From Chloroflexota bacterium (lineage in GTDB: Bacteria > Chloroflexota > Anaerolineae > Anaerolineales > Villigracilaceae), in NCBI GenBank assembly GCA_016191845.1, contig JACPVF010000012.1, positions 1 to 64,000 on the forward strand: a stretch of DNA of 64,000 bases. Direction: 5' to 3'. Under the pieces are notes generated by a model that saw nothing but the letters and a program-made list of their open reading frames with translations, was not told the origin of the DNA and did no database searches. Positions 5,347 through 47,233 of the stretch are shown here, piece after piece. Within the stretch, counting starts at the first letter, position 1, and the number at the start of each line of letters is the position of its first letter. Position numbers and translations under genes: made by a program.

Positions 5347-7623
5347 TTACGGAAGCAGTTCGAACACGCGGATCAGGAAGACGGCCATTTCGGCGCGGGA
5401 GACGTTGGTGTCGGGGCAGAAGTTGCCACCGCCGCAGCCACCCGAGATGCCTTCAGTGGCGAACTGTTCGACCCAGTCCTTGGCCCAGTAGGTGCCGGGG
5501 ACGTCACCGAACATCGTGCCGGTGCCGGTCGGGGGTGTGTAAGCGGAACCGTGCTCGATGCGGAGCAGGAAGACCGCCATCTGCGCGCGGGTCACAGAAG
5601 CATCCGGGCAGAAGAGGCCGGTGCCGCAGCCGCCGGTGATGCCTTCAGAGGCCAGCTGTTCGATCCAGGCGGCCGCCCAGTGAGTGGTGGGCACGTCGGT
5701 GAACACGCCGGTCGCGGTGGGCGGAGTGTAGGCGGAGCCGTGCTCGAGGCGGAGCAGGAAGACGGCCATTTCAGCACGGGTCACGGTGCTGGTCGGGCAG
5801 TAGTTGCCAGCGCCGCAGCCACCGGTGATGCCCATGTCAGACAGACGGTACACGAACGGGGCATACCAGTCGAGGTCGGTTACATCCGCGAAGGGAGTGT
5901 GCGGCTTGCAGGTAGGATACGTGAAGGCGCCGATATAGGTGTACCACTCGGCCGAGGAGTTCACGCGGTTCCATTCCTGGGTGTACCAGAACTGGCAGTC
6001 GTCGGTGGGCGAGAGGGAGATCGAGCTATAGTCGCCCCAGCGGGCGGCGCTGTGGGTCTGGCTGCCGGTACCGGCGAGCATGACGCTCTCACCCTGAGGC
6101 AGGGTGTTGACCGGGTCGGTGGTCAGGCGGCCGGCGTAGCGGATGCCCGGGTAGATCGAGGTGCCGTCGGAGATGCTATAGCCGATGGCCAGGTTGCCGT
6201 TGCCATCGAGGGCGGCGGAACCCATCCAGCGATGCGCTGCATCGGGTGAGTAGGTGCCCTGCTGGTCCACGCCCCAGACGCCATTGACCTTGTGCAGTTC
6301 ATACCAGCGGATGCCAGCATGACCAGCGGGGTCGTTCACGTCCACGGTGTGGTTGGTGACCAGGGTCTGATAGGTGCCAAAGTTGCGGTATTGCAGGCGG
6401 TACATCAGGCGGTCGGCGATGGCATCCACGCCCTGAACGGTGCCGGGCTGCGGGATACAGTTGCGGGCATAGCCAGCGCAGACTTCGGAGTCGAAGGCCG
6501 CCACGGGCAGGGTGGCCACCTGGGTGAAGGTGCCGGTGCCAGCCGTCCAGTTGACGGCGAAGTCCCAGATCTGCACCTGGTCGGGCGAGTAGCCCCAGGC
6601 GTCATCGTCGAACTGCATGAAGTGGTTGGGTTCGCCAGCCGGTGGGACCGGGCCGTCGAGGTCGGAGGGCAGCATGCCGCCCAGGACGCACTCGGGCTCG
6701 GTGCTGGTGCAGGAAGCAGCAGTGTCGATGTAGACCATGCGGGCGTTGCCGCCGGTCAGCATCAGGCTGCGCTCATAGGCTACCACGCCCTGGCCAGCCC
6801 AGGAACCGCCGGAGAACTGGTTCATGGACATGTAGTAGGCATCCGGCCACACACCAAAGTGCGGGTAGTCGTTCATGACCGGGAACTGGTACTCATAGCG
6901 GTACCAGGCGCCCAGCGGGTCACTGGTGGCGGAGATGGCGATGCACTCGGAGAAGGGCGGGTTGGGGTAGTTCGGCAGGGCGAACTGCGAGACCAGCCAA
7001 CGCTTGGCCAGGTGGTCGTACTGCACGATCGGGTCGCCATCATCCCAGGTTTCGCAGGCGCCGCCGAAGCCAGCGAACAGCGTGCGGCTCATGGCGGCCG
7101 GGCCGAAGACGGTCAGGGGCAGGCCAGTGTTCGGGTTGACCTGGGTGATATCCCAAACGGTCCAGACGTTGTTGACGGTCTGGATGTAGTGGGTGTCGCT
7201 GACGTCACCGTTGGTATCGGGAGGCAGCACGCCGTAGCCCTGGACGGTGCGGTTGGTGCCCTGATTGGCGCCGTTCAAGCCGGTGTCGAGGTTGGGCATC
7301 GGGTCTTCGTAGTATTTCTTGTTGCCGGCGTTGGTCTGCAGGGCGCCATCCACCTTGCTGGTGTTGGTGTCCACGACCTTGCGGTTGCTATCGAAGGCCA
7401 GGGGGATACGGTCAGGCTTGGCCTCGGTGGCATTCAGCACCGGGACGTTGCGCATCTGGGGGGACATATCGTGGCGGACGGGGTACTTTGTCTCACCGGT
7501 CAAGGAACGCTGGGTGGGGGCGGCATTTGTGCGCGCATCCACGCCCATCGGGGCCACGGCCGCGAAGACCATTACGATCAAAGCAAGCAACGAAAGAGCG
7601 CGTTGCAGTTTCTGAGTTGACAT
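5347..7623 (-). CDS. Exported protein with three SLH-type modules, paralogue of the preceding gene's N-terminus
   Basis: 758 residues. Residues 1-30 are a signal peptide (MSTQKLQRAL, hydrophobic core, VDA site). Residues about 70-570 form a large domain of unknown function shared with the gene at 1-4836 (VLPPDTNGDV, NDYPHFGVWPD, DRLMYRLQYRNFG, LPQGES), rich in aromatic and WD-like strands and plausibly a beta-propeller. Residues about 575-758 are three SLH-type modules, each with a cysteine pair (GGCGAGNYCP, GGCGTGLFCP, GGCGGGNFCP) and an R-A-E/Q-M-A-V-F-L core, which would hold the protein at the cell wall or S-layer. AAAGGAGA precedes the ATG by seven bases. Monocistronic: own terminator and a long leader. 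No catalytic motif was recognised. Confidence 0.88.
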   Translation of the reverse strand: MSTQKLQRALSLLALIVMVFAAVAPMGVDARTNAAPTQRSLTGETKYPVRHDMSPQMRNVPVLNATEAKPDRIPLAFDSNRKVVDTNTSKVDGALQTNAGNKKYYEDPMPNLDTGLNGANQGTNRTVQGYGVLPPDTNGDVSDTHYIQTVNNVWTVWDITQVNPNTGLPLTVFGPAAMSRTLFAGFGGACETWDDGDPIVQYDHLAKRWLVSQFALPNYPNPPFSECIAISATSDPLGAWYRYEYQFPVMNDYPHFGVWPDAYYMSMNQFSGGSWAGQGVVAYERSLMLTGGNARMVYIDTAASCTSTEPECVLGGMLPSDLDGPVPPAGEPNHFMQFDDDAWGYSPDQVQIWDFAVNWTAGTGTFTQVATLPVAAFDSEVCAGYARNCIPQPGTVQGVDAIADRLMYRLQYRNFGTYQTLVTNHTVDVNDPAGHAGIRWYELHKVNGVWGVDQQGTYSPDAAHRWMGSAALDGNGNLAIGYSISDGTSIYPGIRYAGRLTTDPVNTLPQGESVMLAGTGSQTHSAARWGDYSSISLSPTDDCQFWYTQEWNRVNSSAEWYTYIGAFTYPTCKPHTPFADVTDLDWYAPFVYRLSDMGITGGCGAGNYCPTSTVTRAEMAVFLLRLEHGSAYTPPTATGVFTDVPTTHWAAAWIEQLASEGITGGCGTGLFCPDASVTRAQMAVFLLRIEHGSAYTPPTGTGTMFGDVPGTYWAKDWVEQFATEGISGGCGGGNFCPDTNVSRAEMAVFLIRVFELLP

Positions 7624-8131: not shown

Positions 8132-11100
8132 TTATGGGAGGTTGAAAGCCTTGACCAGGAAGACGGCCATCTGGGCGCGGGTCACCGTGCCGTTCGGGCA
8201 GAAGTTCCCACCACCGCAGCCAGTGGTGATGCCTTGGTTCGCCAGATCTTCAATCCAGTCCGCTGCGAAGTCACCGGAGGCGACATCGGTGAATAGCGTT
8301 CCGGTAGCTGTCGGGGGAGTATAGGAGGAGCCATTGACAGCCCGCAACAAGAAGACGGCCATCTGAGCGCGGGTGATATTAGAATTCGGGCAGTAGTTTC
8401 CACCACCACAGCCACCCGTGATTCCTTCGGCGTATAACTGTTCAATCCAAGCGGCCGCGAAATCGCCGGCATCAACGTCGTTGAAGACGGTGCCAGTTGC
8501 AGCCGGGGGATTGTATGAAGGTCCATGCTCAGCACGTAGCAGGAAGATGGCCATTTCGGCGCGGGTCACATTGCTTTCCGGGCAGTACACAAGTGGGGAG
8601 ACGCCGCAGCCTGTGGTAATGCCATCATCGTATAGACGCTGGATGTAGCTCCAAGCCCAGTACGTACCAGGAACGTCAGCGAAGGTGACCGACTTGAGAA
8701 CGTTGTAGGTTTCGGAAGTAAAGTCGCCATTGCCGACACCAATGCCGCCCAGGCGGTTTCCGTCTGCGTCCTTGATGGAGTCATTGTCGGCCAATCGCAG
8801 GCTCAAAGTGCCATCGCCCGAGCCGGTGTCTACGGTAACGATGTACTTATCGGTATCGCCGCCCACGGAGACGATGGAAGCGCCTGACAAACCGGTCGAT
8901 TCAACGAAGAAGTCGGCCGCATCCACGCCGGTCACAGGAGTATTGAACTTAACCTGGAAGTCGACGGTCTGAGCGTTGGTCGGGTTCGGGTCATCACGCG
9001 AGATGTAGAGCACAGTGGGCGGGAGCAACAGAACCTGAGCCGAGTTGGCGGCGTTGTGCGTGCGCAGGAAGAGCAGACCCTTCGAGCCATTGGCGGCGAT
9101 GTTGGTCTTGTCATACCCGATGGTGAAGGTCGGCTGGGCACCTTGGACGTCATACCAGTACGGTTCGCCGGTGTAGTTCGGATCCAGCGGGCTGAAAGAT
9201 TCCGCCTGATAGTCGTAGTGGTAGGTCTCCGTGCTGTCGATTACACCCGAGCCATCACGGCTGAAGGTGCGGATGGTGAAGTCGAAGTCAGAGTTGGTGC
9301 CATCCAAACCGAGGGAGGCCGCATCGATGGGCAACACCATCACATTGTTATTGAAGAGATTGGTGTTGTAGTTGCCGCTCAACTGGTTGACATAATAATC
9401 AGCGTTACAGTTACTGGTAGCGAGATCACAGTAGGCGGTGAACATTACGTCATCGGTTGTGCCGGTGAAGAAGCCCTGGGTGGTATTGAAGATGACAAAA
9501 TCATCGGTGCCATCTTCATTGGTGTCCACATAGATGTCGAATTCCACAGCCTGGGAGGTGTCCCAGCGGCTGTATGTGGACAAGCCAAAGAACAAGGTTG
9601 GTGTAGAGGGATAGAAACCATAGTCCGACATTACACCGACATATTGCACGTCGGCAGCATCGGATCCACCCATGCTGGAGGTTTCATTGGCATCTTCACC
9701 CATGTACTCCAAGATATAGGCAAGGGAGCTATCGTCGGCTGTATCCACCGGAACACCGGAGAGTGTGAGGTCGAACGTGCCACTCGCAGCGTCGGGCAGA
9801 TTAATGCCGGTTTCGAGCACGCTCATGGCGGCTGCCGGGCGGGCGGCAATGTGAACCGGAACGCGCAGGGACGGCTCGCTACCGGTGGAGGTGAGGGTCA
9901 CATACCCGCCGCCTTCACTGAAACGCTGGCGGCTGCCGGTGACAATGGTCGGGTCGAAAGCTCCCACCAGGTTCGCAGGATTAACTGTGGCCTGTACCTT
10001 GATTTCGAGCGTGCCGTTGGCCGGGACAGTAATTGGGTTCGAGAGAGCCGCGCCGTTGCCGTCCAGCAGGGTGAATACCAAGCCGGCGTTAGCCTGATAG
10101 CGCGAGTCAAAGGTCACGTTATAAGATTGTGCCGAGGCGCTCTTGTTCGAGATAGTAATGCTCTTGGTGAAGGTTTGGGTGGTAACCACATCCACCGCAC
10201 CGAAGGCAACGCTGACTTGGCCGGGATCGTTCTTGTAATAGGCGATCACGTCCGACTGTACAGCACTGGCTACGCTGGCACGGCCAGCACCGACGCGCGT
10301 GGGTGAATACAGGTTGCCGGTGTGACCCAAGCCAGCATACACGTCATTGGTGGCGGTGTTCATCGCCAGAGCCTTGAGTTCAGCCACAGACCAAGTCGGG
10401 TGCTGTTCGCGCAACAGGGCCATGATACCAGCCACATGCGGTGAGGCCATGGAAGTTCCACCGTAGCTGATGCCTCGATTCCCAGTGCCGGTAGCAGTGG
10501 AATAGATCGAATCACCCGGGGCGGCGATATCAGGCTTGAGCAGCGTGCCGCCGCGGGCCGGGCCGCGTGAGCTAGAGGAAACCAGCGTATCTTCCACGGA
10601 GGAATCCGTCATCAGGAATTGGTCTCGATATTGCGAAGTCAGGCGGATGGTGACGGTGGCAGGAACGGCTAGTTGAGCTCTAATCGCGTTGCCGACTGCC
10701 AGAGTGGTCATCATCGAGGGAATGGTAATGGTGGCATCTGTGCCGCCCATAACGAACGGGAAGCCAGCCACGTTATTGGCTACGAGGACACCGATGGCGC
10801 CCTTGAGCTGGGCATTCTTGACCTTTACGGTGAAGTTACAGGTACCACGGTCAATCAATGCAATCTTGCCTGTCAGGTCTTCAGTGATGGCCGTACAGCC
10901 GTTGGCCGGGGTCGTGGTAGCTACATCGGCAGTGACGCCAGTTGTACCAGGGTCAGAGCCAAAGCCTGCTTCCACGGCTGGGTGGGTGCCAACCAATGCG
11001 GCGGGAGCGGTGGCTTCCAGGGCGCTGACGACGGCACCGGAATCAACCGAATTGGCAGTGCTGATAGCGTAGCGTGCCATGCCTGGGGCGCCAGTGATGT

Positions 11101-12295
11101 AGTACACATCACCGCTGTTGCCAGAGGAGGTCACCACGATGACGCCCGCCTGGGCTGCATTATTTGAGGCTGCAGCAGAGCTGTCATATTCCGAGCCGAA
11201 ATTGGAACCGAGCGACATATTGATCACATCGAGGTGATCGCTGAAGTCGCCGTCATTGTTCGGGTCGATGGCCCATTCGATGGCCTGTTCGGTCAGGTCG
11301 GTGGAACCATCGCAGCCAAAGACGCGCAGGGCATACAGGCTGGCTTTGGGAGCCACGCCTGGGCCGATGCGGAATTTGCTCTGATAGGCGGAGGCGCTCA
11401 GGGCTTCCAGGTTGGAGTAGGTGTCCGCGCCAGCCTCAACATAAGTAGAGCCATCCGGGAGGACGCCTAAACCAGCCGCCGAACCTGCTACGTGGCTGCC
11501 GTGTCCGTTGCAGTCCATTGGGTCGGGATCGGGGGACGGGATGGGGTTGTAACTTGAGGAATTGGGATCAGCGTTGTAATCATCACCCGCAAAGTCCCAG
11601 CCGCCCACCACTTTTGCGGTCGGGAACAGATTGCCAGGCTCGGTCAACTTGGTGAAATCCTGGCCGGTGTACACGCCAGGCCCGCCGAAGTTGGTGTGGA
11701 CATAATCGACACCAGTATCGATGATGCCGATTTTGACGTTCTCGCCGAGGATGCCAGCCAGGCCGCCCCACACTTGGGGTGCGCCCACCAAGGGAACACT
11801 GGTAGTGTGATCGAGGGTCTTGGGGATCATCGGGTGGATGGCTTTAACGCCAGACTGGGTGGCGATTTTTGCTAAGTCCTTGGAATCCACCTTGAGCCAG
11901 ATACCGTTGTATACCTTTTGGGTGCGGTATAACTCGGTGGCATGGATCCCCATGCTTCGCAGAGAACTCATGAAACTGGTTTGCTTGGATTGGATCAAGC
12001 TGACCTGGCTTTGAGCCAGAGCCGTCGACTGTGAGTTGCGTTGGGCATAAATCAATGCCGCAGGCGTTTCCTCGAATTCAACGACTACACCAATGTTTCC
12101 CTGCAAGTCGGAGAGGCGACCATAGTAGTTCTGGACTTCATCCAGATTAACTGCTGCAATTTGGACTTTTTCTTTGGTCGGGGGAAGAGGACCTTGAGCG
12201 CTGGCCTGGCCGACAAACTGGGAAAAGACCAGGACAAACACGATCAAGACTGCCACAAATCCTGTTAACTTTGTGGACTTGCTGTGATTACGCAT
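8132..12295 (-). CDS. Secreted S8 subtilisin-type serine protease with PA insert and three SLH-type modules
   Basis: 1,387 residues. Residues 1-34 are a signal peptide (ASA site), followed by an I9-like propeptide (about 40-155). The subtilisin triad is Asp193 (IIDTGVDYVH), His265 (CNGHGSHVAG) and Ser615 (GGTSMASPHVAG), with oxyanion Asn393 (SGNSG). A PA domain (about 440-550, IDRGTCNFTVKVKNA) sits between His and Ser as in lactocepin-like proteases. A long beta-rich region (about 690-1195) leads to three SLH-type modules (1200-1387; TTGCGVSPLVYCP, GGCGGGNYCP, TTGCGGGNFCP). The enzyme should hydrolyse extracellular protein while held at the cell surface. AGGAG is seven bases before ATG. It lies beside an M4 protease and two exported proteins, suggesting a surface proteolysis locus; the terminator at 8085 makes it monocistronic. 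Confidence 0.95.
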   Translation of the reverse strand: MRNHSKSTKLTGFVAVLIVFVLVFSQFVGQASAQGPLPPTKEKVQIAAVNLDEVQNYYGRLSDLQGNIGVVVEFEETPAALIYAQRNSQSTALAQSQVSLIQSKQTSFMSSLRSMGIHATELYRTQKVYNGIWLKVDSKDLAKIATQSGVKAIHPMIPKTLDHTTSVPLVGAPQVWGGLAGILGENVKIGIIDTGVDYVHTNFGGPGVYTGQDFTKLTEPGNLFPTAKVVGGWDFAGDDYNADPNSSSYNPIPSPDPDPMDCNGHGSHVAGSAAGLGVLPDGSTYVEAGADTYSNLEALSASAYQSKFRIGPGVAPKASLYALRVFGCDGSTDLTEQAIEWAIDPNNDGDFSDHLDVINMSLGSNFGSEYDSSAAASNNAAQAGVIVVTSSGNSGDVYYITGAPGMARYAISTANSVDSGAVVSALEATAPAALVGTHPAVEAGFGSDPGTTGVTADVATTTPANGCTAITEDLTGKIALIDRGTCNFTVKVKNAQLKGAIGVLVANNVAGFPFVMGGTDATITIPSMMTTLAVGNAIRAQLAVPATVTIRLTSQYRDQFLMTDSSVEDTLVSSSSRGPARGGTLLKPDIAAPGDSIYSTATGTGNRGISYGGTSMASPHVAGIMALLREQHPTWSVAELKALAMNTATNDVYAGLGHTGNLYSPTRVGAGRASVASAVQSDVIAYYKNDPGQVSVAFGAVDVVTTQTFTKSITISNKSASAQSYNVTFDSRYQANAGLVFTLLDGNGAALSNPITVPANGTLEIKVQATVNPANLVGAFDPTIVTGSRQRFSEGGGYVTLTSTGSEPSLRVPVHIAARPAAAMSVLETGINLPDAASGTFDLTLSGVPVDTADDSSLAYILEYMGEDANETSSMGGSDAADVQYVGVMSDYGFYPSTPTLFFGLSTYSRWDTSQAVEFDIYVDTNEDGTDDFVIFNTTQGFFTGTTDDVMFTAYCDLATSNCNADYYVNQLSGNYNTNLFNNNVMVLPIDAASLGLDGTNSDFDFTIRTFSRDGSGVIDSTETYHYDYQAESFSPLDPNYTGEPYWYDVQGAQPTFTIGYDKTNIAANGSKGLLFLRTHNAANSAQVLLLPPTVLYISRDDPNPTNAQTVDFQVKFNTPVTGVDAADFFVESTGLSGASIVSVGGDTDKYIVTVDTGSGDGTLSLRLADNDSIKDADGNRLGGIGVGNGDFTSETYNVLKSVTFADVPGTYWAWSYIQRLYDDGITTGCGVSPLVYCPESNVTRAEMAIFLLRAEHGPSYNPPAATGTVFNDVDAGDFAAAWIEQLYAEGITGGCGGGNYCPNSNITRAQMAVFLLRAVNGSSYTPPTATGTLFTDVASGDFAADWIEDLANQGITTGCGGGNFCPNGTVTRAQMAVFLVKAFNLP

Positions 12296-12570: not shown

Positions 12571-15288
12571 TTATGGGAGACTGAACGCGCGGACCAGGAA
12601 GACGGCCATCTGGTCGCGGCTGACGGTGGTCGCGGGACAGTACATCGAGGCGGCGCATCCGCCGGTGATGCCTTCGGCCGCCAGTTGTTTGATCCAGGCG
12701 GCAGCCCAGTGATTGGTGGGCACATCATTGAAGCCGGTCCCGGCACCGACAGCGGGCGGGACATAAGCAGCACCATGCTCGCCGCGCAGCAGGAAGACGG
12801 CCATCTGGTCGCGGCTCACGAGCGTCTCGGGGCAGTACAGGCCTGTACCGCATCCGCCGGTGATACCTTCGTTATACAACTGCTCGATCCAGGCGGCGGC
12901 CCAATGGGTGGTGGGCACATCGGTGAAGATGCCGGTCGCGGCGGGCGGCGTATAAGCCGAACCGTGCTCAGCACGCAGCAGGAAGACGGCCATCTGGGCG
13001 CGGGTCACGCCCACGGTCGGGCAGTACAGACCGGTCCCGCAGCCGCCGGTGACGCCGTTGGCGGCCAGCTTCTCGATCCAGGAGTAGGCCCAGTGGTTGG
13101 TACCCACATCGCTGAAGCGGGTGCACTCGTAGACCTGGATGTCATCCAGCCACCAGCCCCATACGTAACCGCTGCTGTCCAGGCCCATGCGGAAGCGGAA
13201 CATCACGTTCTGTCCGGCCAGCGAGGAGAGGTTCAGGCGGGTGGAGATGTAGCCGTGGCTTATGCCGGTGAAGGCCGAGCGTCCGCCCAGCGGGTTGCTG
13301 AATCCGCTGGATAGCACCGCATCGTAACCGTTGCCGTCCATCAGCGAGCCGGCATCGGCCCAGGAGGAGCCGCCGTTGGTGCTATATTCCAGCACACCGC
13401 CGTCGAAGCCTGTTTCAAAGCCATAGGCATGGTTGAAGATCATATACCCATTCGCCGGGACGTTGGCCACACTGACCATGCGCAGGTATGTGTCAGTGGC
13501 GACAGCAGGGTAGTCGTCCGCATACAGGAAGTGCACGCCGGAATGGGAGAAGATGCCGTAGTCGGCGGTATAGGGCCAATCGTAATACCAGTGGTTGGCG
13601 CCAGTGAAGTAGCCTGAGGTCCAGTTGCCGGAACCGGCTTCAAGGTTATCGAAGAAGCGCGGGGCCGGGTACTTGCCAGCTGTGTCACAAGCCGCGGTGT
13701 CGGGGTTGTATCCCGCCACCGGCTGGAGGTTCATCTCCACCGCATCCACGGCGTCCTTGACTTCCTGGCAGTCGGCGGAGGTGATGCCGGCTGTGCCGAT
13801 CTGGGCAGCACAGGAGGTCTGCAGGGCGTTATACAGGTCGGCATAGTCCGAGCCGGAGACCAACAGGTTGGCCTGGGCGTAGTAGTAGATCTTGGCGGTC
13901 TTGGTGATGCCAATGCCGGTGACGGTATAGCCATTAAATCCGGCACCATCCACCATCAGGTAGGCAGCCTTGTTGTTCACGCCACTATTGAAGTGCACGC
14001 CGCCGTTGTCGCCCGTGCCGGTGTAGTAGTTCACGCTGGTGATCTTATCGGGATCGCCATAGATGGTCGGGTCGGCCATGTTGCGGATGACGCCGATGCT
14101 GGCGGGCAGGTCTTCTCCCATCTGCCAGCGGGTACCGGACGTGTCGGTGCCCTTGCCATTGGTCAGGTCCACGAACTCGCCCCACACATCCGAGAAGGAC
14201 TCGTTGATGGCGCCCGACTGCCAGAAGTAGAACAGCCGCGATTCGTTTTCCGTCACACCGTGGGTGAGTTCATGCCCCACCACATCGTCGGCACTGGCGA
14301 AGCCCGCGCCGTACACCATTTGAGCGCCATTCCAGAAGGCGTTCTCATAGTTGACGCCGTAATTGACCGAGGACTTGATGGCCATGCCCGCGCCGTTGAT
14401 GCTGTCGCGGCTGTGGTTGTTCCAGTAGAAGTCGTAGGTGTCGCCGGCGTAGGTATGAGCGAAATAAGCATCACCTGAACCGCCGCCGCAGTTGACAGTG
14501 CCTTCGTTACAAACCAGCGAGCCCGGCAGAGCGGTGGTGCCAGACAGGTTATAGGTGAGGCGGTTCTTGGCAGAGTCGATCTGGTTGAAGGTGAGGGCTG
14601 TGCCGCCGCGTTTGGCATCGATCAGAACCAGTTGGCGGATGGGATCGATCCCGTTCTTGGCGGTCACTTCCACGCGCCAGACGAGCGTGGTCGTGCCGTT
14701 ATAACCGGCCAACAGGGCCGGGTTGTATATCCAGAGTTCGGGCTGGCTGGCCTGCAGGGCGTCGACGTTCTCACCGCTGTATTTGGCGGTAAGTTCGAGG
14801 GCGGCCTGGGCGGCGGCAGACTCTTCGATGGTGGGGGTCACGTCCAGGTCCGTGATGGGCAGGACTTCGCCGTTGGCCGAGAGCACATCCTTGGCCGAGT
14901 CCATCTGGACGATCATTTCACCGGCCAGTACGGGGATGCCGCGATAGGTCTGCTGGAAGCGGACCGTGCTGGTGCCGATCTCCGTCTGGGTCTCGCGCAT
15001 GACCTTGAGGTCATTGTACGCGTCGCGCAGGCCAAAGGCCTCGCCATAGGTGGCGAGGAAGGAACGGGCGACCGTTTCGCCGCTTTGTTCGCGCTGGGCG
15101 GCCGTGGCTGTGTGAATGGGGCGCCCGTCGGCGGGCGAACCCATGTAACTGGCCAGACCAGTCAAGTTATGATAAGCAATGGTTGCTTGGGGGGGAAGGG
15201 GGGCAAGGGCCGAAGCGGGCACGTTCGGGACGACCAGAACTGCGATCATCAGGATGGCCAGCAGGGCTTGAATCCGTTTGCTAAGCAT
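12571..15288 (-). CDS. Secreted M4 thermolysin-type metalloprotease with three SLH-type modules
   Basis: 905 residues from the ATG at 15288, chosen over the longer frame because GGAGG sits six bases upstream and a signal peptide (MLSKRIQALL, ASA site) begins there. An FTP/PepSY propeptide (about 30-235) precedes the M4 catalytic domain. The zinc site is His339-Glu340-x-x-His343 (GHELTH) with third ligand Glu363 (AINESFSDVWGE); His432 in GGVHFNSGVNNKA is the transition-state histidine. Residues about 545-715 are a MAM-like or immune-inhibitor-like sandwich (FFDNLEAGSGNW), and about 720-905 are three SLH-type modules (GGCGTGLYCP twice, GGCAASMYCP). It should be an autoprocessed neutral protease held at the cell surface, working beside the S8 protease. 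The terminator at 12520 makes it monocistronic. Confidence 0.95.
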   Translation of the reverse strand: MLSKRIQALLAILMIAVLVVPNVPASALAPLPPQATIAYHNLTGLASYMGSPADGRPIHTATAAQREQSGETVARSFLATYGEAFGLRDAYNDLKVMRETQTEIGTSTVRFQQTYRGIPVLAGEMIVQMDSAKDVLSANGEVLPITDLDVTPTIEESAAAQAALELTAKYSGENVDALQASQPELWIYNPALLAGYNGTTTLVWRVEVTAKNGIDPIRQLVLIDAKRGGTALTFNQIDSAKNRLTYNLSGTTALPGSLVCNEGTVNCGGGSGDAYFAHTYAGDTYDFYWNNHSRDSINGAGMAIKSSVNYGVNYENAFWNGAQMVYGAGFASADDVVGHELTHGVTENESRLFYFWQSGAINESFSDVWGEFVDLTNGKGTDTSGTRWQMGEDLPASIGVIRNMADPTIYGDPDKITSVNYYTGTGDNGGVHFNSGVNNKAAYLMVDGAGFNGYTVTGIGITKTAKIYYYAQANLLVSGSDYADLYNALQTSCAAQIGTAGITSADCQEVKDAVDAVEMNLQPVAGYNPDTAACDTAGKYPAPRFFDNLEAGSGNWTSGYFTGANHWYYDWPYTADYGIFSHSGVHFLYADDYPAVATDTYLRMVSVANVPANGYMIFNHAYGFETGFDGGVLEYSTNGGSSWADAGSLMDGNGYDAVLSSGFSNPLGGRSAFTGISHGYISTRLNLSSLAGQNVMFRFRMGLDSSGYVWGWWLDDIQVYECTRFSDVGTNHWAYSWIEKLAANGVTGGCGTGLYCPTVGVTRAQMAVFLLRAEHGSAYTPPAATGIFTDVPTTHWAAAWIEQLYNEGITGGCGTGLYCPETLVSRDQMAVFLLRGEHGAAYVPPAVGAGTGFNDVPTNHWAAAWIKQLAAEGITGGCAASMYCPATTVSRDQMAVFLVRAFSLP

Positions 15289-15366
15289 TCTAACCTCCGA
15301 ATTGGGATGACAGAAAATATGATAGGCCATGGGTCTTGCAATCGGTATGTATTTATAAGGAAAACG

Positions 15367-15375
15367 CCACCTCCT
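15367..15375 (-). promoter_or_regulatory. Extended Shine-Dalgarno-like leader motif without a start codon
   Basis: AGGAGGTGG on the minus strand, 79 bases before the M4 protease start. A GTG overlaps the motif itself but its frame stops after a few codons. A perfect -10 (TATAAT) lies upstream at 15392-15397, so the motif is inside the transcript. Confidence 0.45.
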
Positions 15376-15391
15376 ATTTCGATATATGTTC

Positions 15392-15397
15392 ATTATA
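15392..15397 (-). promoter_or_regulatory. Candidate -10 box of the M4 protease gene
   Basis: TATAAT on the minus strand, about 105 bases before the start at 15288; no clear -35 element was found. Confidence 0.35.
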
Positions 15398-15572
15398 AAC
15401 GACAACGGAAGGGTCATATCCAGTACGCTTGTCCTGTTCTTTTCGGGTTTTGGGGCGAGGTGCGCCTTCAACCGGGATATAATAAGACGCTGGCTCGAGC
15501 CGCGGCCCGGGAGGGAAACCTTTTTGTCCGCTGCGGGTTAGGAACGATATCACATCAAGAGGAGTAGGTTTC

Positions 15573-18885: not shown

Positions 18886-21081
<2,196 letters not shown>

Positions 21082-45386: not shown

Positions 45387-45475
45387 TTTTTGGGTGCCGC
45401 GTAACTTTTTTTAGATTCCAGCGACTTTTATGAAAAGGACATTAATTTGTCCAAATAGTCAGGAAAGGAGAATGC

Positions 45476-47233
45476 ATGAAGATTCGAAAGGTTCTGTTTC
45501 GCATTGGACTGTTCCTCGCCGCGACCCTCTTGATCGGCGGTGGGGCTGGGATCGCGGCCAAGCCCGCCGACGCGGCGGCTGGCACGTATAAGATCCTGGC
45601 CTGGAACGACCTGGGGATGCACTGCTACAACCGCGACTTTGCCGACCTGGCCGTCCTGCCGCCCTACAATACGCTCTGGGTGCAGGTGGTCAAGTCGGGG
45701 AATCCGCCGCAGTTGGTCACCAGCGGGATCACGGTCCAGTATTCCTATGCCGATAATACCTACTCGGTCGGCAAGACCAATTTCTGGACCTACTCCAAGG
45801 CCTTGTTTGGAGCCGATCTGGCCCCGAACGTGGGTTTGAAGGGGAAGGGCCTGTCTGGGATGATGGACCTGGCGGGCGATCATTACGTAGCTGAAGGCAT
45901 CCCCGTCACCGAGTTTAGCGACAGCGCCCCCACCGTCAGCCAGCCCTATCAACTGGCCACGGTGGTCGTCAAGGACTCCGCTACGGGGGCCACCCTCGCC
46001 ACCACCCAGGTGGTGACTCCTGTTTCGTCTGAGATGCGCTGCGATAATTGCCATGGCGATACGGGCGAGGCTCGTCCCAATCACCCCACGGGTAAGGTCG
46101 AGACCAATATCCTCCAATTGCATGACGAGGAGGAGGGGACCCATCTGATGACCAGCCGTCCTGTGCTGTGCGCCAATTGTCATGGCTCGAACGCCCTCGG
46201 CATGACGGGCAACCCGAACCTGCCCAATTTGTCCAAGGCCATGCATTCGAAGCACAATGGCGAGGTCAGTAACACCCTGGATGGCTGCTACAACTGCCAC
46301 CCCGGCCCGCAGACCAAATGCCTGCGCGATACCATGTCGGCCAAGGGCATGACCTGTATCAGCTGCCACGGCGGTATGTCCACGGTTAAAAACAATCCCA
46401 ACCCGTGGTTGAACGAGCCGCGCTGCGACACCTGTCACAACTCGGGTCAATACAACCAGAACCACGCCTTGTATCGGTTCTCCACCGAGCATGCAGGCTT
46501 ATACTGCGAAGCCTGTCACGACAGCACCCATGCCGTGGCTCCCAGCCGCGAGACGAATGACAGTCTTAAGTTCATCGCCTTGCAGGGCAAGAATGGCCCC
46601 GTGGACCAGTGCACGGTCTGCCACACCACTGTCCCTACGGGAGCGGGTCCGCACGGGATGACCTCCTCTGGACCTACGCCCATTTTCGCAGATGTGGGTG
46701 CCACCTATTGGGCACGGGACTGGATCGAGCGCCTGTACCTGGCTGGCATCACGGGCGGGTGCTCCACTACGCCGCTGCTATACTGCCCGGAGACCCTGGT
46801 CACCCGTTCGCAGATGGCCGTCTTCATCGAACGCGGCCTGCATGGCGCCACCTATGCCCCGCCGACCAATGTGACGATCACCTTTGGGGATATTCAAACC
46901 CATCCAATGCGTTACTGGATCCAGGCCTTTGCGGCGGATGGGATCACTGGAGGGTGCGGAAGCGGGAACTTCTGCCCCGAGGGTGTCGTCTCGCGTGCCC
47001 AGATGGCGGTCTTCCTCCTGCGTGCTGAACATGGCGCCGCATATGTTCCGCCTGCTGCCAAGGGCACGATCTTTACCGATGTACCCAAGACACATTGGGC
47101 CGCGGCATGGATCGAGCAATTGGCTGCTGAAGGCGTCACCACGGGCTGTGGGGGTGGACTGTTCTGCCCCGACACCTCGGTCAACCGCGCCCAGATGGCC
47201 GTGTTCTTCGTGAAGGTCTTTGCGATACCTTAA
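45476..47233 (+). CDS. Exported heptaheme cytochrome c with three SLH-type modules
   Basis: 585 residues. Residues 1-34 are a signal peptide ([16 protein letters not shown] site). Residues about 38-180 contain [17 protein letters not shown], a segment seen in other multihaem proteins. Seven CxxCH haem sites follow between Cys189 and about residue 383: CDNCH, CANCH, CYNCH, CISCH, CDTCH, CEACH, CTVCH. Residues about 400-585 are three SLH-type modules with cysteine pairs ([33 protein letters not shown]). The protein should carry electrons outside the membrane while anchored at the cell surface; the partner and direction are unknown. AAAGGAGA precedes ATG by about six bases. It is monocistronic, with a hairpin after the stop. 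Confidence 0.93.

Follow-up and report, generated by a model that had tools for sequence, protein, structure and literature searches.

An SLH-tailed heptahaem cytochrome of a Chloroflexota bacterium, probably a wall-held electron carrier built on a core with exchangeable tails

Electron passage across a thick cell wall, without a porin-bearing outer membrane, is a long-standing question, for which there are few experimental cases (Thermincola, Carboxydothermus, Ardenticatena). The question is raised anew by a gene in a stretch of 64,000 nucleotides, referred to below as the window (positions 1 to 64,000 of contig JACPVF010000012.1, assembly GCA_016191845.1, Chloroflexota, family Villigracilaceae). 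Its predicted product combines seven haem-binding motifs with three SLH-type modules, and the questions are whether this protein conducts electrons at the cell surface, and what holds it there. The best explanation, which we consider probable, is a secreted, wall-held heptahaem cytochrome that would link the respiratory chain in the membrane, by relaying electrons, to an extracellular acceptor or donor.

The open reading frame described for this locus in an earlier, sequence-only reading is present (Table 1), and its product reads, from the N-terminus on, as a signal peptide, a beta domain, a region with seven CxxCH motifs and, at the C-terminus, three SLH modules. An antisense frame at 45428-46492 was rejected as an overlap artefact, homologues conserving the frame on the plus strand. 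According to sequence and hydropathy, the N-terminus starts with positive charge, followed by a hydrophobic stretch (the best 19-residue window begins at residue 10, mean 1.99) and an Ala-rich, cleavage-like region at approximately residues 28-35. No further hydrophobic segment was found by hydropathy in the 585 residues, and the sequence contains no lipobox, the first Cys being residue 50. Export, claimed in the same reading, is predicted from this Sec-like N-terminus, from the SLH tail and from export tails on homologous cores (e.g. T9SS, see below).

Table 1. Positions of the cytochrome gene, its domains and motifs, and the other SLH-tailed genes of the window
Feature	Residues	Position in window	Strand	Basis or remark
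SLH-anchored heptahaem cytochrome gene	585 aa	45476..47233	+	ATG start; syntenic orthologue of same architecture in L036/G308
Signal peptide, Sec type (predicted)	1-34	45476..45577	+	sequence and hydropathy
N-terminal beta domain	36-185	45581..46030	+	AlphaFold2 pLDDT 93; opens with conserved WNDLGMHC, H49 and C50 invariant
Heptahaem domain	186-395	46031..46660	+	Pfam Cytochrome_C7 and Cytochrom_c3_2 above cut-off (excised core)
Haem site 1, CDNCH	189-193	46040..46054	+	invariant in 75 sequences
Haem site 2, CANCH	232-236	46169..46183	+	motif search; 75-sequence alignment
Haem site 3, CYNCH	271-275	46286..46300	+	first Cys in 74/75
Haem site 4, CISCH	294-298	46355..46369	+	motif search; 75-sequence alignment
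Haem site 5, CDTCH	317-321	46424..46438	+	CX4CH in some relatives
Haem site 6, CEACH	344-348	46505..46519	+	motif search; 75-sequence alignment
Haem site 7, CTVCH	379-383	46610..46624	+	motif search; 75-sequence alignment
SLH module 1, divergent	~405-455	46688..46840	+	below Pfam cut-off; SLH signature, aligns with paralogous tails
SLH module 2		46883..47008	+	Pfam, above cut-off alone
SLH module 3		47072..47200	+	Pfam, above cut-off alone
Protein of unknown function, same three-SLH tail		5347..7623	-	no Pfam domain besides SLH
Subtilase (S8, PA domain), same SLH tail		8132..12295	-	Pfam
Thermolysin-like M4 metalloprotease, same SLH tail		12571..15471	-	Pfam

The CxxCH count, exactly seven as reported earlier, is far from chance: when its residues were shuffled 20,000 times, the mean was 0.029 motifs and the maximum 2. 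All sites are intact across 75 aligned sequences, except for the single absence of the first Cys of site 3. Given that PF14522 and PF14537 score above their cut-offs, that the seven motifs are conserved and that export is predicted, the protein is predicted to belong to the multihaem c-type cytochromes. Six His residues outside the motifs (49, 216, 257, 260, 339 and 352) are invariant in the 75 sequences, and H393 occurs in each of the 68 that align as far as that position. There are thus seven candidate distal ligands for seven haems, so that complete bis-His ligation could be possible, which would suit electron transfer better than catalysis. Still, a sufficient number of His residues does not guarantee such ligation: OcwA has enough of them for all nine of its haems, yet retains open sites and a Met ligand (PMC6703420). 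In the protein considered here, the distal ligands are assigned from conservation.

Two cysteines outside the haem motifs, C50 and C282, are also invariant in the 75 sequences, possibly forming a disulfide or serving as haem ligands; in a distant relative (L027), the aligned residues are Glu and His. These cysteines, lying beside the haem domain, could be taken as a trace of an enzyme, in which one or several open-site haems reduce or oxidise a soluble substrate (a nitrogen or sulfur oxyanion, or peroxide), the tail displaying a catalyst and not a wire. Multihaem reductases and electron-transfer cytochromes are indeed evolutionarily mixed, as seen in OcwA (PMC6703420), but no NrfA, OTR, HAO or MccA model matches the protein, CxxCK sites are absent, the number of invariant non-motif His equals that of haems, and the match of the profile to NrfA chains is short and no better than E 0.0024. 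A surface-held enzyme therefore seems unlikely, and electron transfer remains the preferred function.

The C-terminal 185 residues are made up of the three SLH modules of the earlier description, although the first of them is recognised on other grounds than the second and third (Table 1); for the whole protein, the Pfam SLH model (PF00395) yields 53.8 bits against the cut-off of 20.8 (E 1.9e-14). SLH modules bind pyruvylated wall polysaccharide, and in SpaA of Paenibacillus alvei the binding is defined by essential Gly29 and Arg43 and by stacking Trp13 (PMC6081394). As read from the sequence, equivalents of Gly29 and Arg43 (the latter in TRAE-type context) occur in all three modules here, and that of Trp13 in two of them. 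Moreover, CsaB is encoded at C3:52829-55552, with 227.7 bits for the TIGR03609 equivalog model (cut-off 213.1). Since Gly and Arg are kept in every module and CsaB is encoded, the chemistry for SLH docking on a pyruvylated wall polymer is likely present in this genome. Electron transfer was initially placed through or at the S-layer; for the reasons just given, the wall is the better supported attachment site, and no lattice-forming S-layer protein has been identified in this analysis.

A further feature of these modules is a pair of cysteines in constant positions (GGC...[FY]CP), observed in 60 of 62 SLH modules gathered across the genome; in the cytochrome the pairs are C429/C437, C494/C500 and C558/C564 (window 46688-47200). 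A disulfide inside each module is likely. To our knowledge, such a pair is not known in the modules of Sap or SpaA.

The tail is by no means specific to the cytochrome. Two surface proteases and a protein of unknown function in the window had been proposed to share it, and all three reading frames do carry it; in the whole genome (4.63 Mb, 18 contigs) it is found in about 40 genes, at 47-74% identity, so that the idea of one anchoring tail for very different surface proteins extends beyond the four cases visible in the window. Several contig ends (C5, C8, C12, C14, C16, C17) fall inside SLH tails; hence the assembly seems to be broken by the repeated module, and the gene count is a minimum. 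Among 61 sampled genomes of the family, tail matches at E 1e-10 or better were found in six (G000, G308, G302, G333, G332, G213) and in none of the others, five of the six having 12 to 82 matches and one a single match; presence differs even within one genus code. We propose that the SLH tail is a local retention device, put by this lineage on many surface proteins.

In the cytochrome part, residues 36-395 form a separate, conserved unit. It recurs, at 44-88% identity, in records that bear the labels of 18 phyla; these labels rest on the best 80 of 567 relatives in a collection of named genomes, most of which are metagenome bins, so that some phylum labels may be wrong. Bacteroidota, Nitrospirota, Desulfobulbales and Acidobacteriota are among the labels of these 80, and one 'Acidobacteria' bin (L048) falls inside the Chloroflexota clade. 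No match to the cytochrome was found in the plasmid collection. The core occurs in 19 of 298 genomes of the class and in 5 of 150 of the family, and hence is an accessory trait. In one relative (G260 C12:18759-19953; L024, L032) the cytochrome is encoded in two overlapping pieces, due to a frameshift or an assembly error. The heptahaem family appears to be widespread and unnamed, with no dedicated Pfam or NCBIfam model in the libraries searched. Given a name and a tested function, it would help to predict from genome data which bacteria have extracellular redox capacity, for which commonly just CxxCH counts are used.

What follows the core varies between its carriers. It was first suspected that the core is SLH-linked everywhere, but this was dropped, as homologous cores bear other tails or none. 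SLH modules follow it in the window protein, in L036/G308 and in G417; in L036/G308, a syntenic congener, the core is 88% identical and the SLH part 71%. In G431, FN3-like repeats stand behind a core 82% identical to that of the window, and in G317 the core has no tail. T9SS sorting domains follow the core in Bacteroidota-type genomes. Lipobox-like N-termini are seen in two genomes of 2.1 Mb (G652 and G664) from the phylum of the organism studied here. Tail classes were assigned by pattern on the alignment and are approximate: of 89 rows, 19 have a YLPxxxK/R tail (mostly Chloroflexota) and 17 T9SS-like tails, the T9SS type A sorting domain being above cut-off in seven of the eight tested, while the remaining classes comprise dockerin-like repeats (a label without model confirmation), extra haems and short ends. 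The tree cannot be explained with fewer than 23 switches between tail classes. As independent export or retention signals are attached to one core, its extracytoplasmic location is supported, and the core likely works outside the cytoplasmic membrane, in this organism as well.

One of these tails deserves separate mention. Many homologues from Chloroflexota (L010, L011, L016, L038, L042, L044, L053 and others), and also one from Desulfogranum (L047), terminate in a short [FYI]LPxxx[KR] sequence. No NCBIfam model matched the one such tail searched (L042), and in the genome studied here YLP-type tails gave one pattern match, which is the control level. This tail may represent a signal for sorting or anchoring that has so far escaped recognition.

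Together these data allow a broader, more tentative interpretation, which we regard as possible but somewhat doubtful: the core would be an old heptahaem unit that acts outside the cell, differs from MtrC, OcwA, OmcS and similar cytochromes, has been transferred widely, and has repeatedly been re-equipped by recipient lineages with a tail of their own (SLH, T9SS, lipobox, YLPxxxK, dockerin-like, FN3-like). If true, bacteria with one membrane and with two would have in it a portable surface-electron module of general use.

The AlphaFold2 model of the core, built on the 75-row alignment, is of high confidence (pLDDT 93, pTM 0.90). Structural searches with Foldseek and VIA-align gave weak Ig-like matches, all to the beta domain (core residues 1-152; Z up to 5.2, not discriminating), and no multihaem match in the PDB, which is no sign of a new fold in the haem domain. 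In sequence comparisons the similarity points to MtrC/MtrF. In particular, the model of their domain II/IV (PF22113) scores 30.9 bits with the core alone and 28.7 with the whole protein, borderline relative to the cut-off of 30, and is matched by 14 of 17 homologues at E up to 1; the 75-row profile, compared with PDB chains, places MtrC (9eov) first (E 5e-5). This similarity may be generic, because PF22113 also gives a score to a further multihaem protein encoded in the genome. Membership in the OmcA/MtrC decahaem family was considered and ruled out by the seven haems, the single beta domain and the score on TIGR03507 (cut-off 209), which at E up to 1 does not match the window protein and gives a homologue 18.1 bits.

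In its genome the cytochrome gene stands alone, flanked by divergent or unrelated housekeeping genes. CxxCH-like codon patterns number 441, compared to 168 for reversed-pattern controls, which indicates a cytochrome-rich genome, and CcmF and CcmH are encoded. A search for partner cytochromes, as advised in the sequence-only reading, reveals multihaem and b561 modules, but none adjoins the cytochrome gene here: nine- to fifteen-haem proteins accompany b561-type cytochromes at C4:74623-79115, C5:118290-121433 and C15:353000-355729. The C5 operon, located on another contig than the cytochrome, encodes an FAD oxidoreductase, a b561-like protein and a 15-haem protein. In L041, homologues of all three, 48-54% identical, adjoin the core, and those of the FAD and multihaem (18 or 20 haems) proteins do so in G214/L184 and L192/L069, which amounts to three of about 35 Chloroflexota neighbourhoods inspected; in about 30 of the 35 no partner cytochrome is found near the core, which, like the isolated gene here and the rarity of the core in the family, counts against the relay. 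The C5 operon is thus the best lead to an electron partner, as far as gene neighbourhoods can suggest one. Relatives of its 15-haem protein, as noted at L192 (G105) and L184 (G214), vary in length by haem-unit repeats, with 11, 15, 18 and 20 CxxCH motifs, which suggests growth by internal duplication.

No conserved operon partner was found across all 80 named loci; what recurs is limited to two-component and ABC genes of a generic kind and to synteny within single clades. The two-component genes, located near the core in several relatives, may be thought to reflect redox sensing at the wall, or the protein may capture or store haem or iron there, in either case for signalling or nutrition and not for respiration; a haem-binding SLH protein does exist in Bacillus anthracis, as cited in PMC6199725. 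Yet these neighbours differ in orientation and identity, CxxCH binds haem covalently and is unsuited to delivery, and every site and ligand is conserved, as in an electron-transfer chain, all of which makes such functions very improbable.

The direction of electron flow is a separate matter. Alternative Complex III-like genes are located at C11:143862-149795, and a long frame of the window (18889-21081), named from its sequence, reads as a KatG-type catalase-peroxidase, suggesting exposure to oxygen. The organism plausibly respires oxygen, and the cytochrome might supply the respiratory chain with electrons drawn from partner cells or reduced minerals, with oxygen or nitrate as the final acceptor, instead of discharging them; for one isolate of the Chloroflexota, transfer in both directions has been proposed (PMC5808234). 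Direction is not readable from sequence, however, and uptake has no independent support; as a distinct function we consider it quite unlikely.

The preferred explanation, a wall-held relay, may then work as follows. The protein would be exported by Sec, and its haems attached outside the membrane by the Ccm system. The SLH trimer would dock on the pyruvylated wall polysaccharide made with CsaB. Electrons would arrive from quinol-linked b561/multihaem modules, the C5 operon being the best candidate, and the seven closely spaced, putatively bis-His haems would pass them, in either direction, to a mineral, a humic substance, a neighbouring cell or another partner. The cytochrome core would be the old, mobile module of this arrangement, and the SLH tail its local means of retention. 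The electron transfer suggested in the earlier reading is inferred here from the haem number, the possible ligation and the genomic context.

The nearest experimental parallel, set beside the window protein by description alone, is ARMA_0580 of Ardenticatena maritima (Chloroflexota), a protein of 430 residues and seven haems that gave a positive haem stain and was recognised by antibody on whole cells of a bacterium making anodic and cathodic current (PMC5808234). Both proteins have seven CxxCH motifs, a signal peptide and a presumably monoderm Chloroflexota host, and ARMA_0580 is about as large as the core. The differences are that no SLH tail is reported for ARMA_0580 and that its best match in that paper is a Desulfosporosinus protein (PMC5808234); no Ardenticatena record is among the best 80 of 567 core relatives. 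In the literature searched, mostly without subscription journals, we found no SLH-fused multihaem cytochrome in Chloroflexota.

Other systems share single features with the window protein. In MtrC and MtrF, too, a multihaem domain comes after a beta domain, and there is the borderline, possibly generic similarity in domain II/IV, but they contain ten haems in two beta/haem pairs and are attached as lipoproteins or by a porin, compared to seven haems, one pair and SLH modules here. OcwA of Thermincola potens is also a multihaem cytochrome of the surface, the proposed terminal reductase of a Gram-positive, porin-free cell, though with nine haems, mixed ligation and a fold related to NrfA and c554 (PMC6703420); the 75-row profile compared with PDB chains found no match to it. 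MHC-A and MHC-B of ANME join a multihaem cytochrome and a surface-layer module in one protein, and have been proposed to route electrons through the outer protein layer; these are archaeal, with at least 20 haems, an S-layer lattice domain of the DUF1608 type and a membrane helix (PMC9012536), and the window protein, having seven haems and no such Pfam lattice domain, stands outside this group.

The anchor itself resembles that of the Gram-positive SLH proteins SpaA and Sap, with three modules, the ligand-binding Gly and Arg and, in this genome, CsaB (PMC6081394), whereas the passenger here is a cytochrome and the modules of this genome have the Cys pair described above. With the redox unit and the wall anchor joined in one chain, anchoring becomes directly testable by removal of the tail.
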